DNA of 64,000 bases from Limosilactobacillus caccae (lineage in GTDB: Bacteria > Bacillota > Bacilli > Lactobacillales > Lactobacillaceae), in assembly GCF_900156885.1 (NCBI RefSeq), contig NZ_FTOY01000008.1, positions 1 to 64,000 on the forward strand, read 5' to 3'. A model generated the notes under the pieces. The model had not been told where the DNA came from. It saw only the letters and a program-made list of their open reading frames with translations, and ran no database searches. Positions 26,275-43,466 of this stretch are shown here, piece by piece (the stretch's first letter is position 1; the number at the start of each line of letters is the position of its first letter). A program made the translations under genes and the position numbers.

Positions 26275-26344
26275 GGGAAAGTTTAGTTAGTGAAGTGGTT
26301 GGTCATTGATTGTTAGGCGAAAATTATGCTATGATGGTTCTCGT

Positions 26345-26440
26345 TATGAAGCAAATTCCCGATAGGATTCACGTCTAAACGTGAAGATGCCTTGTAACCG
26401 CAACTACGAACTCAAAAAGTTTCAATAGAATATGGGGGAA
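26345..26440 (+). promoter_or_regulatory. SAM-III (SMK box) riboswitch of metK
   Basis: The conserved SMK parts are present: ATTCCCGATAGGAT (26355-26368), a hairpin CACG/CGTG, and GAAGATGCCTTGTAACCG (26383-26400). The Shine-Dalgarno GGGGGAA (26434-26440) can pair with TTCCC (26356-26360). SAM binding sequesters the ribosome binding site, so translation of SAM synthetase falls when SAM is abundant. A linker of about 33 nt separates the core from the Shine-Dalgarno. A promoter TTGATT (26306) to TATGAT (26330) fits upstream. Confidence 0.92.
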
Positions 26441-26447
26441 TTAGAAA

Positions 26448-27635
26448 ATGGCAGAACGACATTTATTTACATCCGAATCAGTTTCAGAAGGGCACCCAGA
26501 TAAGATCGCGGACCAAATTAGTGATGCAATCTTAGATGCCCTTTTAGAAAAAGATCCAGACTCACGGGTTGCTGTAGAAACATCGGTAACGACCGGCTTG
26601 GTATTAGTCTTTGGTGAAGTTTCCACGAAGGCTTACGTAAACATCCAACAAATCGTGCGTGACACGATTCGCCAAATTGGTTACACCGATGGTAAGTATG
26701 GCTTTGACGCTGACAATTGCGCTGTGATTACCGCCATTGATGAACAATCAGCTGATATTGCACAAGGGGTTGATGACTCCTTAGAGACCCGTGAAGGGGA
26801 CGCAGATCCGCTTGACCAGATTGGCGCAGGTGACCAAGGACTGATGTTTGGTTATGCAACTGATGAGACACCAGAATACATGCCACTTACACTGGTATTG
26901 AGTCACAAGTTGATGCGGAAAATCGCCCAATTGCGAAAGGATGGGACGATTTCATACCTGCGTCCTGACGCTAAGGCAGAAGTTACCGTGGAATATGACG
27001 AAAATGATAAGCCATTGCGCGTTGATACAGTTGTATTGAGTACCCAACATGATCCGGAAGTATCATTAGACCAGATCAAAAAGGACGTGATGGAGCAAGT
27101 TATCAAGGCGGTTATCCCAGCCGAATACCTTGATGACAAGACCAAGTACTTTATTAACCCCACGGGTCGTTTTGTAATCGGTGGACCACAAGGGGATGCT
27201 GGTTTGACCGGTCGGAAGATCATCGTTGACACTTACGGTGGTGCTGCTCACCACGGTGGTGGGGCCTTCTCTGGTAAGGACGCGACAAAGGTTGACCGTT
27301 CAGCCTCATACGCTGCCCGTTACATTGCCAAGAACTTGGTTGCTGCTGGCTACGCGAAGAAGGCAGAAATCCAAGTTGCTTATGCGATTGGGGTTGCTGA
27401 GCCGGTATCAATCATGGTCAACACCTTTGGCACCGGTACTAAGAGTGAAGAAGAGTTAATTGCTGCCGTTCGCCAGGTATTTGATTTGCGGCCAGCAGGA
27501 ATTATTAAGATGCTTGATTTAAAGCGGCCAATTTATAAGCAGACGGCTGCATATGGTCACTTTGGCCGCACAGACATCGACCTTCCGTGGGAACATCTTG
27601 ATAAGGTCGATGAATTAAAGAAAATCTTAGGTTAA
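26448..27635 (+). CDS. metK: S-adenosylmethionine synthetase
   Basis: Makes S-adenosylmethionine from ATP and methionine; cytosolic tetramer. The 395-residue protein has the family motifs [14 protein letters not shown] (near the N-terminus), [12 protein letters not shown] (about 125) and GGGAFSGKD (about 270). The start at 26448 follows GGGGGAA, which is part of the SMK box riboswitch, so translation is controlled by its own product. Single gene before the leuS leader. Confidence 0.98.
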
Positions 27636-27682: not shown

Positions 27683-27920
27683 TAAATATTTGATCGTAAT
27701 AGAAATAGTAGCTGTTAACCCAGTGTGCAGAGATCTTGTGGCGGTGCAAACAAGAGACTGGTTAGTAGTGAACTCATCTAGGATGATTGCCATTGAATTG
27801 AGTAGGTGGTGACGTCTTACCGCGTTAAGGTATCAAGTGCCATGATATCTCATGGAACACGGGTGGTACCGCGGATTAGATTTCGTCTCGTAGAATTATT
27901 TCTACGGGACTTTTTTATTA
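27683..27920 (+). promoter_or_regulatory. T-box leader (leucine) of leuS
   Basis: The T-box core GGGTGGTACCGCGG lies at 27861-27874. A terminator stem GTCTCGTAGA (27885-27894) with TCTACGGGAC (27901-27910) and a T run follows. The candidate specifier codon is CTC (Leu) at 27773-27775 in AGTGAACTCATC. Uncharged tRNA-Leu stabilises the antiterminator and permits leuS transcription. Confidence 0.93.
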
Positions 27921-38328: not shown

Positions 38329-38344
38329 AGTAAAACTGTTTACT
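38329..38344. promoter_or_regulatory. LacI-type operator before rbsR
   Basis: AGTAAAACTGTTTACT has perfect 6-bp arms (AGTAAA/TTTACT) around four bases. It lies immediately before the rbsR ribosome binding site, so repressor bound there would block elongation or promoter clearance. Confidence 0.6.
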
Positions 38345-38361: not shown

Positions 38362-39378
38362 ATGAAAAAGAAATTTACGATTCGTGATTTAGCAAAAGAG
38401 GCAGGGGTTTCCGTAACGACTGTTTCCCAGATTCTTAATAATAAGGGTGACCGTTTTAGCAAGGCGACCCAGGAAAAGGTGCTGGCTTTACGGGATAAGT
38501 ACAAGTACGTTCCTGACTTCAATGCCCGTAACTTAATCTTGCGAAGTGCTAAGACGATCGGCGTATTGGTACCCAACATTGCTAATCCGTTCTTTGGTAC
38601 CTTTATCGAAGGGGTGCAAAGTGTCGCCAGAAAGGAAAAATTTATCCCCCTTGTCTTTAGTGCAAACCGTGATCCTAATTTGGAGAAGTACTACCTTTCG
38701 CAGATGATTGAGCGGTCAATCAGTGGCTTGGTAATTGCGAGTGCGACGATGACGACGGATACGATTAATGAGGTAATTTCTTTTAATGACATTCCATATA
38801 TCCTTTTTGATCAAAACCATACTCAACAGGGGGATCGTGTGCAAACCAGCGACTTTTTAGGTGGTCAACTAGCGGCTAACCACTTGTTAGATTTAGGCCA
38901 CCGTCATATTGCTATTTTGACATCAGATAACCCCTCAGAAAATTTGAATCACCGGATGAATGGGTTTAAAAAAGCAATTGCGGACCACCAATTAAACTTT
39001 GATGAAGTTAGGGATGTTATCCAAGCCCCATTAACAACAACTGGTGGCTACCAGGCAACTGACCAAGTGTTAAAGACCGGTGCCTCGGCGGTTTTTGCGG
39101 CTAATGATGAGATGGCGATTGGTCTGTTGCGGGGATTGCATGAGCGCGGCGTGAAAGTTCCTGCAGAGATTTCCGTAATGGGTTACGATAACATTTACCT
39201 TGATGACTATGTATATCCCCGGTTGACGACAGTTCAACAACCAATCTTTGACTTGGGGGTTGGGGCAACCGAGATGTTGATTGAATTGATCAATAGTGAT
39301 AATAACGAAGACCATGTCCAAAGTTTCCCAGTAAAATTAATTAAACGAGACAGTACAGCTCCCTATAAGGGGAACTAA
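38362..39378 (+). CDS. rbsR: LacI-family transcriptional regulator, probable ribose repressor
   Basis: A 338-residue regulator. The N-terminal helix-turn-helix and hinge cover about 1-60 (FTIRDLAKEAGVSVTTVSQIL). The rest is a periplasmic-binding-protein-like sensor domain (GVLVPNIANPFFGTFIEG, AVFAANDEMAIGLL, DNIYLDDYVYPRLTTV). The assignment to ribose rests on the ribokinase gene 55 bp downstream. A 16-bp palindrome at 38329 suggests autoregulation. Confidence 0.88.
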   Translation: MKKKFTIRDLAKEAGVSVTTVSQILNNKGDRFSKATQEKVLALRDKYKYVPDFNARNLILRSAKTIGVLVPNIANPFFGTFIEGVQSVARKEKFIPLVFSANRDPNLEKYYLSQMIERSISGLVIASATMTTDTINEVISFNDIPYILFDQNHTQQGDRVQTSDFLGGQLAANHLLDLGHRHIAILTSDNPSENLNHRMNGFKKAIADHQLNFDEVRDVIQAPLTTTGGYQATDQVLKTGASAVFAANDEMAIGLLRGLHERGVKVPAEISVMGYDNIYLDDYVYPRLTTVQQPIFDLGVGATEMLIELINSDNNEDHVQSFPVKLIKRDSTAPYKGN

Positions 39379-40469: not shown

Positions 40470-40703
40470 GTGAAAGCAGAATTTATTCTAAAAGTAACTA
40501 TTCCACCGCTTATCATCTTTGCGGTTCTCGTCTGGCTGACGATTGCAAATTATATCTCTGGCTGGACAATGTACGTCTTATGGATCATTGGTTTTATCGT
40601 CGCCAACGTTATTGTGACAAAGGTGTCAACCAAGTGGAGTATCCAACGAGTACGCGAAAAAAGGGCAAAAGAGGAACAGCAGAAGAATGAAAATAATCAA
40701 TAA
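40470..40703 (+). CDS. Small membrane protein, 77 residues
   Basis: Two hydrophobic segments (VTIPPLIIFAVLVWLTIA and MYVLWIIGFIVANVIV) followed by a charged tail (REKRAKEEQQKNENNQ). The start is GTG at 40470, preceded by GTGGAGG nine bases upstream. Its end overlaps the CPBP protease gene by 17 bp, so the two are translated from one message. Function unknown. Confidence 0.75.
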   Translation: MKAEFILKVTIPPLIIFAVLVWLTIANYISGWTMYVLWIIGFIVANVIVTKVSTKWSIQRVREKRAKEEQQKNENNQ

Positions 40704-41364
40704 AAGTTCTTGGCTGTACCGGGTGCTAGTAATCGCCTTATTTTTTATCGCAATTCAAGTTCCGCCGGTTGCCGTCCAGTTGGCGAACCACTATTCTGCC
40801 AACGAGGTAATTGTAGCTGCGTTTGTCGCGTTGTTCTTAGGATTAATGTTAGCGATTATTTGGTTAGCTAGCCATACCTACCAGGAGTACAACCAACTAG
40901 GGAAACCAGCAGGGATTAAACTACGGTGGATTATCGGGGGCTTTTTAGTAATTATCCTCGGTACTGATATATTAAGTGTTCTTAATAAGGTGATTTATCA
41001 CCAGACAGAGACGGCTAATAATGCGGCACTCGGCAATCTGCTGGGGCATAACCAGCTTGTAACAATCGCCTTTATGTTTTCCGCAATTGTCCTCAGTCCC
41101 ATCGCGGAAGAGTTCATCTTTCGCGGTAGCCTTACCAATATGTTCTTCAAAGTGACGAATATTTGGCCAAAAGTGTTCCTATCAGGGCTGGTCTTTTCGG
41201 CGGGGCACATGAGTACAAACCCCGTTAGTTTCCTGATCTATGCATTCATGGGGATGACATTGGCCTACGTCTATTTGCAAACACGTGATATTCGCAATTC
41301 AATGGCGATCCATATGCTGAATAACTTGATAGCGATGTTTGTATTATTTACACAAATAAGTTAG
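40687..41364 (+). CDS. CPBP-family intramembrane metalloprotease
   Basis: A 225-residue membrane protein of the CPBP (Rce1/Abi) family. The conserved residues are Glu141-Glu142 with Arg146 (EEFIFRG), His174 (SAGH) and His209 (IHMLNN). In lactobacilli relatives are linked to bacteriocin self-immunity or prenyl-protein processing; no bacteriocin gene is nearby, so the role is open. It overlaps the preceding 77-residue protein gene. Confidence 0.88.
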   Translation: MKIINKSSWLYRVLVIALFFIAIQVPPVAVQLANHYSANEVIVAAFVALFLGLMLAIIWLASHTYQEYNQLGKPAGIKLRWIIGGFLVIILGTDILSVLNKVIYHQTETANNAALGNLLGHNQLVTIAFMFSAIVLSPIAEEFIFRGSLTNMFFKVTNIWPKVFLSGLVFSAGHMSTNPVSFLIYAFMGMTLAYVYLQTRDIRNSMAIHMLNNLIAMFVLFTQIS

Positions 41365-41374
41365 AAAAGGTTCT

Positions 41375-41388
41375 TGTAATCGCTTTCA
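41375..41388. promoter_or_regulatory. cre site (CcpA) overlapping the ncRNA promoter
   Basis: TGTAATCGCTTTCA matches the catabolite-response consensus TGWNANCGNTNWCA at every position. It overlaps the -35 TTGTAA (41374-41379); the -10 is TATATT (41397-41402) with a 17-bp spacer. CcpA should repress this promoter on preferred sugars. Confidence 0.8.
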
Positions 41389-41407
41389 AAAAATGGTATA
41401 TTATTAG

Positions 41408-41712
41408 TGAGGAAGGATAGCGAATGAGGACATGATGAGTCATGAGGATCCTCCTACTAGGTTAAGCGCCGAAGAGAGTTATAGAGTAGGCTAGAAGCAA
41501 CATAAGAGTGACTAGAAACCTCGAGTTAAGTAATCTTTGTAATATCAAGCATGGAGTCACCAGGGTGCACTTAACCAGTAGTTTAATATAAATGCGACTT
41601 TGCGGAAGTTTAGAATCAAAAGTAGTTAATCATAATTAGTTCCAGAGCAAAGTGGCAAGATTCCTTCCGTAAGAAAAGAGACTGGAAATCCACCAGTCTC
41701 TTTGTTATTTTA
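41408..41712 (+). ncRNA. Unassigned structured RNA of about 300 nt
   Basis: It has its own sigma-A promoter just upstream, no credible open frame, and a terminator hairpin AGAGACTGG/CCAGTCTCT (41677-41701) followed by TTTGTTATTTT. Complementary segments: GGAAGGA (41411) with TCCTTCC (41662) closing the whole; GAGGA/TCCTC (41426, 41449) with inner CATGA/TCATG; CCTACT/AGTAGG (41453, 41485); GGTTAAG/CTTAACC (41460, 41570); GTGACT/AGTCAC (41508, 41555); CTTTGC/GCAAAG (41598, 41647). The crossing pairs suggest a pseudoknot. I could not match it to tmRNA, RNase P, SRP, 6S or a known riboswitch. Confidence 0.65.
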
Positions 41713-41736
41713 AAGTGAAGAGGGGAGGAGGAAAAG

Positions 41737-42015
41737 ATGTTTTTATCAACCGAAGGATTTCCGCAAGCACACCAAATTTTAGGGATTGTAAATGCGACGA
41801 GTCATTTAGCGATGCCGAGTGAAGCAATTGATTCATTTGAATCGATGGATCAGTTGTTTAGTGACGTGCAAGAAAAGATGAAATTAAGGGCAAGTGAAAA
41901 GGGCGCTGACGGAATTGTTGAAGTCCGTTTTACTACTGATGTCGCTAATATGCAGGTTGCACCAAAATTCTTAGTTTTAACGGGATACGGTACAATGATT
42001 AAGTTTATCAAATAA
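41737..42015 (+). CDS. YbjQ-like (UPF0145) heavy-metal-binding domain protein
   Basis: A 92-residue protein with the YbjQ/UPF0145 pattern: GIVNATSHLAMP near residue 17, then KGADGIVEVRFTTDV and LTGYGTMIKF at the end. The fold forms pentamers; biological function is unknown. Start 41737 has GAGGGGAGGAGG in front. It lies 25 bp after the terminator of the structured RNA, so read-through of that terminator could supply its mRNA. Confidence 0.75.
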   Translation: MFLSTEGFPQAHQILGIVNATSHLAMPSEAIDSFESMDQLFSDVQEKMKLRASEKGADGIVEVRFTTDVANMQVAPKFLVLTGYGTMIKFIK

Positions 42016-42756: not shown

Positions 42757-42891
42757 TTGTATCAATGTCCCCGATTTTTGTTAATCTTAATTAAAGTATA
42801 ATAAGGATTTAAATTGATCGCAATTAGTGGGTGAAAAATACTTGTAATTTTGTCAACTTTCGGTATACTTAATAGTGTTGTAAATATCTAT

Positions 42892-42976
42892 GCCCAAGTG
42901 GCGGAATTGGCAGACGCGCAACGTTCAGGTCGTTGTATGGGTTTCCATGTACAGGTTCGAATCCTGCCTTGGGCAT
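42892..42976 (+). tRNA. tRNA-Leu (CAG)
   Basis: Acceptor GCCCAAG pairs with CTTGGGC. The anticodon loop TTCAGGT gives CAG reading CUG, and there is a long variable arm. No CCA encoded. Isolated gene with its own promoter (CGGTATACTTAAT region just upstream) and terminator. Confidence 0.95.
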
Positions 42977-42981
42977 TTTGA

Positions 42982-43016
42982 AAGCTCGGTAATCGTTGAT
43001 TTACCGGGCTTTTTGC
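42982..43016 (+). terminator. Terminator of tRNA-Leu
   Basis: Hairpin AAAGCTCGGTAA/TTACCGGGCTTT with a T run. Confidence 0.85.
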
Positions 43017-43067
43017 TTATTCTATACATCAAATTGACCACCAATAATCAAGAAATGGAGGGATATG

Positions 43068-43466
43068 ATGCGAGCCCTATCGATTCATCCGGAATATGCG
43101 ATGGCAATTTTAACCGGAACAAAGACAGAGGAATATCGTACATGGACGACGAAACACCGTGGCGACTTATTGATCTGTAACTCAGCAAAGAAGACACATG
43201 GTGCAGTGGCAGGATATGCCTTATGTGTCGCCAAAATTACGGGGATCCGAGAAATTAATGATGCTGGTGGCGACTACTATGGCTGGCAAATTGCCCCTTT
43301 TGGTCCGCATGGTTCTTATTGGATTGAACCACTGGCGGTAAAGGGTCAATTACGGCTCTTTAACGTTGATGACGATTTGATCCATCCCGCACCATTTACG
43401 GATATCCAATCGCCCGCTGCCAAAAAGTGGTATCAAGAAAAAATTAGCCCTTTAATTTATCCATAG
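43068..43466 (+). CDS. ASCH-domain protein
   Basis: A 132-residue protein with the PUA-like ASCH fold: RALSIHPEYAMAILTGTKTEEYRTW at the start (the conserved G-x-K-x-x-E motif) and KHRGDLLICNSAK. ASCH proteins bind RNA or act as small nucleases or amidohydrolases; the exact activity is unknown. Start at 43068 rather than 43065 because GGAGGG would be too close to the earlier ATG. Followed within 20 bp by the RdgB-like gene. Confidence 0.8.
   Translation: MRALSIHPEYAMAILTGTKTEEYRTWTTKHRGDLLICNSAKKTHGAVAGYALCVAKITGIREINDAGGDYYGWQIAPFGPHGSYWIEPLAVKGQLRLFNVDDDLIHPAPFTDIQSPAAKKWYQEKISPLIYP

Follow-up and report, generated by a model that had tools for sequence, protein, structure and literature searches.

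The window, that is, the whole 64-kb stretch of DNA analysed, carries at 41374-41712 on the forward strand what is, as read from its sequence, a complete free-standing small transcription unit, consisting of a promoter, an RNA of ~265 nt and an intrinsic terminator. The unit and its two neighbouring genes comprise the following features.

40687..41364, + strand: CAAX (CPBP) protease gene, neighbour (PF02517)
41374..41379, + strand: -35 box TTGTAA (promoter scan)
41374..41389, + strand: cre-like palindrome TTGTAATCGCTTTCAA, a putative CcpA operator that contains the -35 box (pattern match, homologous promoters)
41397..41402, + strand: -10 box TATATT, with TG before it and a 17-bp spacer (scan; conserved in the alignment)
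41407..41673, + strand: structured RNA, span of the covariance models R1 and R2
41675..41712, + strand: intrinsic terminator, with a stem at 41675-41703 and a T-rich tail (terminator scan)
41737..42015, + strand: YbjQ-like gene, a neighbour that is not consistently linked (Pfam YbjQ matches below the curated cut-offs)

Transcription of the RNA would start near 41408-41410. The initial annotation of this DNA had proposed a sigma-A promoter with 17-bp spacing, a factor-independent terminator and no protein frame, and all of these elements were recovered. The promoter, TTGTAA-17-TATATT at 41374-41402, is conserved across the homologues, no ORF of at least 50 aa overlaps 41365-41736, and a terminator-like hairpin stands shortly 3′ of the RNA at 43 of the 44 homologous loci in a loose scan run without shuffled control, which gave none for L028 and placed several matches 49-59 nt downstream. 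The number of such elements was close to that expected from shuffled sequences: in 1.2 kb, 4 promoter matches of that class were observed against 2.6 expected, a count that by itself is not rare, and 1 terminator match against 0.7. It is by its conservation and covariation that the RNA gene exceeds chance. The terminator at 41675-41712 also resembles other sites in several relatives and one in genome G000 (C4:460144-460181, 87%), as a repeated terminator element would, and some of the extra blastn matches in carrier genomes consisted of the terminator only.

When the 4227 families of Rfam 15 were searched at the gathering score, no match was obtained at the RNA locus, in agreement with its earlier description as unassigned, and 14 matches were obtained elsewhere in the window (5S, tRNAs, T-box, SAM-III). 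With E values up to 10, the best match scored 20.7 bits, the cut-off being 79 (E 0.44), and covered the terminator on the opposite strand. Of the 8 weak matches in this range, 7 were on that strand and one, ncr1015 (19.8 bits against a cut-off of 60), on the strand of the RNA; they were taken as chance. An exact 20-base pattern gave no match in the IMG/VR viral contigs. The RNA family is unmatched in Rfam, and no earlier report of it was found in the open-licence PMC papers searched; the main texts of a 50-genome paper (PMC11109978) and a microbiome paper (PMC8040213) contain no word beginning with Lactobac, and the RNA may be among their unnamed supplementary motifs.

The RNA was located by blastn in 35 of 95 genomes, its own included, all of the same genus. 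Searching with R1, a covariance model built from 28 homologues, detected it in 40 of 50 Limosilactobacillus genomes, the species covered being reuteri, oris, pontis, frumenti, vaginalis, panis and others, and it was present in all 7 genomes of a second genus, g3, which is probably Paucilactobacillus. Over 301 genomes of the family, R1 gave 20 matches in 2 of 40 genera and none in the 38 other genera sampled. The wider model R2, used under stricter filters, matched 26 of the 396 genomes searched in the family and 3 of the 295 searched in the order, in the same two genera only. There was one match per genome wherever E was <= 0.001, and in the 10 genus genomes without the RNA no R2 match was better than E 0.33. 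Because these 10 of the 50 genomes do without it, the RNA is dispensable. Full-length identity to six relatives was 73-81% for the RNA, 61-69% for the CAAX gene and 70-81% for the YbjQ gene; the RNA is therefore kept better than the former and about as well as the latter without having a reading frame, which argues for selection. A lack of conservation in close relatives, which the annotation had named as an argument against function, was accordingly not what the searches found.

The + strand folded better than 100 of 100 shuffled sequences (z -3.22), and comparison of the homologues gave the following consensus elements, in which A3 denotes an alignment of 32 sequences from both genera.

41411..41417 with 41662..41668, + strand: P1, closing helix of 7 bp (99.1% of cells paired; two-sided changes at 2 of 7 pairs)
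41460..41466 with 41570..41576, + strand: P2, GGTTAAG with CTTAACC (covariation, permutation)
41468..41491, + strand: P3, hairpin GCC-GAA...AGUA-GGC with a loop-E-like internal motif (two-sided changes GTC/GAC and ACC/GGT)
41497..41499 with 41566-41568, + strand: P4a, GCA with UGC (invariant in A3)
41508..41512 with 41556-41560, + strand: P4, GUGAC with GUCAC (98.8% paired; two-sided changes at 3 of 5 pairs)
41594..41656, + strand: the whole P6/P7 hairpin (covariation in A3)
41594-41603 with 41647-41656, + strand: P6 (95.3% paired; two-sided changes at 4 of 9 pairs)
41604-41607 with 41640-41643, + strand: P7 (90.0% paired; no two-sided changes)
41615-41617 with 41659-41661, + strand: possible short pseudoknot, weak (72.6% of cells paired)

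For the structure derived with RNAalifold, 97.4% of the cells were paired over 38 sequences and 14 of 37 pairs showed two-sided changes, versus 7.1 in shuffled alignments, a count made on an alignment that had been fitted to the structure. In A3, 92.0% of the cells were paired and 19 of 39 pairs showed two-sided changes versus 9.6 after shuffling, with 71 cells carrying such changes versus 22.9, the structure here being hand-made from the same sequences that were counted and the counts partly reflecting shared descent. When the structure was slid along A3 as a control, 32-48% of the cells were paired, and two-sided changes were seen at 3-12 pairs and in 3-32 cells. RNAalifold on the 32 sequences found P1, P3, P4a, P4 and P6 unaided, and did not find P2 and P7. 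P4a does not vary in A3, and P7 and the pseudoknot are weak across the genera.

Because P2 is misaligned in A3 for several g3 rows (73.8% paired), its strands were tested separately by permutation. Strands from the same genome paired over a mean of 6.7 bp versus 3.7 bp between genomes, the permuted mean was 3.8, and none of 2000 permutations reached the observed value; in this test the anchor was misplaced for L046-L048, and bulges were disallowed. Several relatives have a P2 of 9-12 bp, and no other helix of the family covaries as well. The initial annotation had noticed this pair of segments and taken it to cross other helices: the pairing stands, and the crossing has to be dropped, P2 being nested around P3 and P4. 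Its picture of a heavily structured RNA with a 7-bp helix joining the two ends agrees with the shuffling result and with the covarying P1, and the covarying pairs that it suggested looking for in homologous regions were present as counted above.

In P3, GAA lies opposite AGUA, which we take to be the signature of a loop-E / sarcin-ricin motif. The first pair of the hairpin is broken (A-C) in five reuteri-group rows, where ACC faces GGC or GGA, and rows L011, L027, L048 and L083 were read by eye. An alternative given by alifold, in which GCC 41468-41470 binds the 3′ strand, was replaced by P3, which shows two-sided changes and was predicted on the wider alignment. The segments AGUAGGC, AGAAGCA and UAAG form a near-invariant core kept across the two genera, and the outer parts vary. 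Judged by this comparison, the locus is a real, evolutionarily conserved gene for a folded RNA of Limosilactobacillus and one neighbouring genus.

A feature absent from the earlier annotation is the putative operator in the RNA promoter, TTGTAATCGCTTTCAA, which matches the consensus of CcpA operators. The strict palindrome TGNAANCGNTTNCA was found in 37 of the 44 homologous promoters (those without it are L016, L022, L024, L026, L027, L028 and L045) and nowhere else in 144,502 bases, a constancy that partly reflects shared descent. A looser cre pattern, chosen with the sequences already in view (whereas the strict pattern had been used before for a count in G000), was found in 43 of the 44 and at one other place; the promoter that lacks it, L045 of g3, differs by one base in the central CG. 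In the 64-kb window by itself there were 3 cre matches, one palindrome being counted twice, against 1.53 expected, which is not significant. Since this frequency is near chance, the case for the cre rests on its place and its constancy. The genome G000 has 11 copies of the strict palindrome, compared with 5 of a reversed control pattern. When one adjoining gene was tested at each of the other 10 sites, 7 were carbohydrate genes or LacI-type regulators (an alpha-amylase-type enzyme, GH31, GH32, a PfkB-type kinase, an aldose epimerase, a sugar transporter and a LacI-type regulator), the remaining 3 being MFS_1, cNMP-binding and amidase genes. Both a cre in the core promoter and a ccpA gene in the genome, the two features looked for in a CcpA-repressed small RNA, were found, ccpA scoring above its curated cut-off in all 7 genomes tested. 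The RNA promoter thus likely carries a CcpA switch, and the operator match, its position and the presence of ccpA point to repression, presumably by a site lying over the -35 box. Another palindrome, AGTAAAACTGTTTACT at 38329-38344, stands before the LacI-type gene at 38362; it is unlike the cre of the RNA and is perhaps that gene's own operator.

The best explanation of these observations, and probably the correct one, is that the locus is a CcpA-repressed gene for a trans-acting structured RNA of a family unmatched in Rfam. In the presence of preferred sugars, CcpA and its co-repressor would bind the cre covering the -35 box and block transcription; once these sugars are exhausted, the RNA would be made, its transcript would end at its own terminator, and it would act in trans. 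The mode of action is the least certain part of this proposal. Base-pairing with mRNAs or other small RNAs, the mode of RsaI and RosA, appears somewhat likelier than binding of a protein or ligand through the core, and a core so strongly conserved suggests that there is more to the RNA than a short antisense seed.

The proposed function resembles that of two known RNAs, and no match supports membership of their families. RsaI (RsaOG) of Staphylococcus aureus is, according to PMC9266662 and PMC8216469, under CcpA repression that is relieved on glucose starvation, and the latter paper gives it G-rich and C-rich pairing segments. The RNA described here is likewise free-standing and, as proposed from its cre, under CcpA control; unlike RsaI, it has by eye no G-rich or C-rich segment kept in all homologues, and it has no Rfam match. 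RosA (S345) of Bacillus subtilis, according to PMC8216469, is free-standing as well, has a CcpA site in the promoter region and acts as a CcpA-repressed sponge for RoxS and FsrA. Here too a free-standing RNA has a cre at its promoter; the cre of RosA, however, lies at -1 to +12, whereas the one described here covers the -35 box. The RoxS and FsrA families have no Rfam match within the window. A further group for comparison is that of the large folded RNAs of bacteria, such as ROOL, GOLLD, OLE and HOLDH, which share with this RNA a folded structure, a conserved core and a function known in part at best. The window RNA is shorter than the members of that group, and it differs from them in having neither an Rfam match nor, by the exact 20-base pattern, a match in IMG/VR. 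HOLDH, considered as a candidate, was set aside, as the passages of PMC8191799 consulted offer no ground for a link.

Several other readings of the locus were weighed against a trans-acting RNA under CcpA. That the region encodes a small protein, or is no more than the 3′ part of the CAAX gene, is very improbable: the RNA does as a rule come just after the CAAX gene in Limosilactobacillus, but its own promoter is conserved, other genes lie between the two in two g3 loci, the longest frame of each of the 44 RNAs measures between 8 and 58 codons, and frames of at least 20 codons, compared for 6 of the 44 RNAs, have no common sequence. Another reading is a cis-acting leader or attenuator of the YbjQ-like gene, which would sense a signal and decide on read-through past 41703. 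The annotation had offered this alongside a trans-acting RNA, pointing to the YbjQ-like gene 25 bp past the terminator, and the gene does start 25 nt after it. YbjQ starts within 160 nt of the RNA at 22 of the 42 loci with enough downstream sequence (two of the 44 end too early for evaluation), but at none of 6 in g3, so that a leader is unlikely. At 19 of the 42 it was not found within 1.3-2.0 kb downstream, and at L018 (G042) it lies 1,150 nt (~1.1 kb) from the RNA, as if something had been inserted, so constant linkage was not observed. The consensus helices and the terminator, moreover, do not overlap. In G018 (L120, ~2166-2173), the stop codon of the CAAX gene is followed at once by the YbjQ start codon ATG; both genes are kept, and the promoter, the RNA, the terminator and the YbjQ ribosome-binding region are absent, so that YbjQ occurs there without the RNA. 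A decayed copy in G027 (L030, 1369-1580) has a broken cre and lacks the 3′ strand of P4, with P6 and P1 remaining. The surroundings also change in g3, for which ORFs were listed at three of six loci: at two of these three, acetolactate decarboxylase precedes the RNA and the CAAX gene lies further up, and over the 9 kb of the third (L085) neither of these genes was listed. Because the RNA keeps its own promoter and cre, changes its neighbours and is lost as a unit, we regard it as a free-standing gene. Of the two functions first offered, the trans-acting RNA is hence the one favoured, and we consider the YbjQ leader quite improbable.

A diverged member of a housekeeping family (6S, RNase P, tmRNA or SRP) would be roughly similar in length, with closed ends. 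The 6S RNA was tested as a candidate because in lactic acid bacteria it often has a cre; PMC8414754 places this cre near the promoter, reports it in over a third of the 6S genes, and describes rarA and uspA as the usual flanking genes. Our RNA is also structured, noncoding and provided with a cre, but it is a separate gene with the CAAX protease gene and often YbjQ beside it, and its fold is a different one. The long hairpin with a central bulge is the site of 6S that serves RNA polymerase as a template. This feature was not found in our consensus, which is branched and consists of P1 around a junction of P2, P3 and P4 plus the separate hairpin P6. Both 6S (RF00013, C4:278038-278225) and class B RNase P RNA (RF00011, C4:545347-545717, 307.8 bits) are encoded at other places in G000, neither model matching the RNA locus, which refutes the reading for these two and agrees with their exclusion by eye in the annotation. 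The 6S model also detected its gene in both g3 genomes tested, and did not do so in the other 3 of the 6 genomes tested. With the lack of any Rfam match and the absence of the RNA from 10 of 50 genus genomes, we give a housekeeping identity hardly any weight.

Rather more can be said for an operator read by another LacI-family repressor such as RbsR, in which case the RNA would answer to a specific sugar and, of the preferred explanation, the identity of the regulator alone would change. Operators of this family look alike; genes of LacI type and for a PfkB-type kinase (by context rbsR and rbsK) lie upstream in the window, the former ~2 kb away; the 14-mer TGTAATCGCTTTCA is also found before another PfkB-type kinase gene, at C4:193669; and among the three g3 loci read, L085 carries, 2 kb upstream of the RNA, a LacI-type gene that is RbsR-like below the cut-off. 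The site is kept, however, in the two other g3 loci, where the neighbours are alsD, CAAX, MarR-like or other genes, and the LacI-type gene of the window is itself preceded by a different palindrome, so we consider this reading unlikely. A free-standing RNA might instead serve as a scaffold that binds a protein or ligand (an RNP, titration of a regulator, or a trans-acting aptamer) without base-pairing, which is compatible with CcpA repression and action in trans and which we retain as a tentative possibility. Loop E motifs often bind proteins, and here the loop-E-like motif and the near-invariant core are kept across two genera; against this, no single gene stays adjacent across the loci examined. 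It is somewhat more doubtful that the large folded RNAs described here form a class of their own in heterofermentative lactobacilli, expressed upon relief from CcpA, whose branched core with its loop-E-like motif binds a protein or metabolite as a small regulatory RNP or trans-acting aptamer, in contrast to an ordinary antisense RNA.

If the preferred reading, a trans-acting RNA repressed by CcpA, is true, a conserved RNA tied to carbon catabolite control would add a post-transcriptional layer to the sugar response of these lactobacilli, among which L. reuteri and related species serve as probiotics and starter cultures. The natural deletion in G018 and the decayed copy in G027 provide ready comparisons. 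Elsewhere in the window, a SAM-III riboswitch (26344-26450) and a T-box leader (27686-27893) lie close together, and a 96-codon frame at 42890-43180 is probably spurious, since it overlaps the tRNA at 42892-42975.
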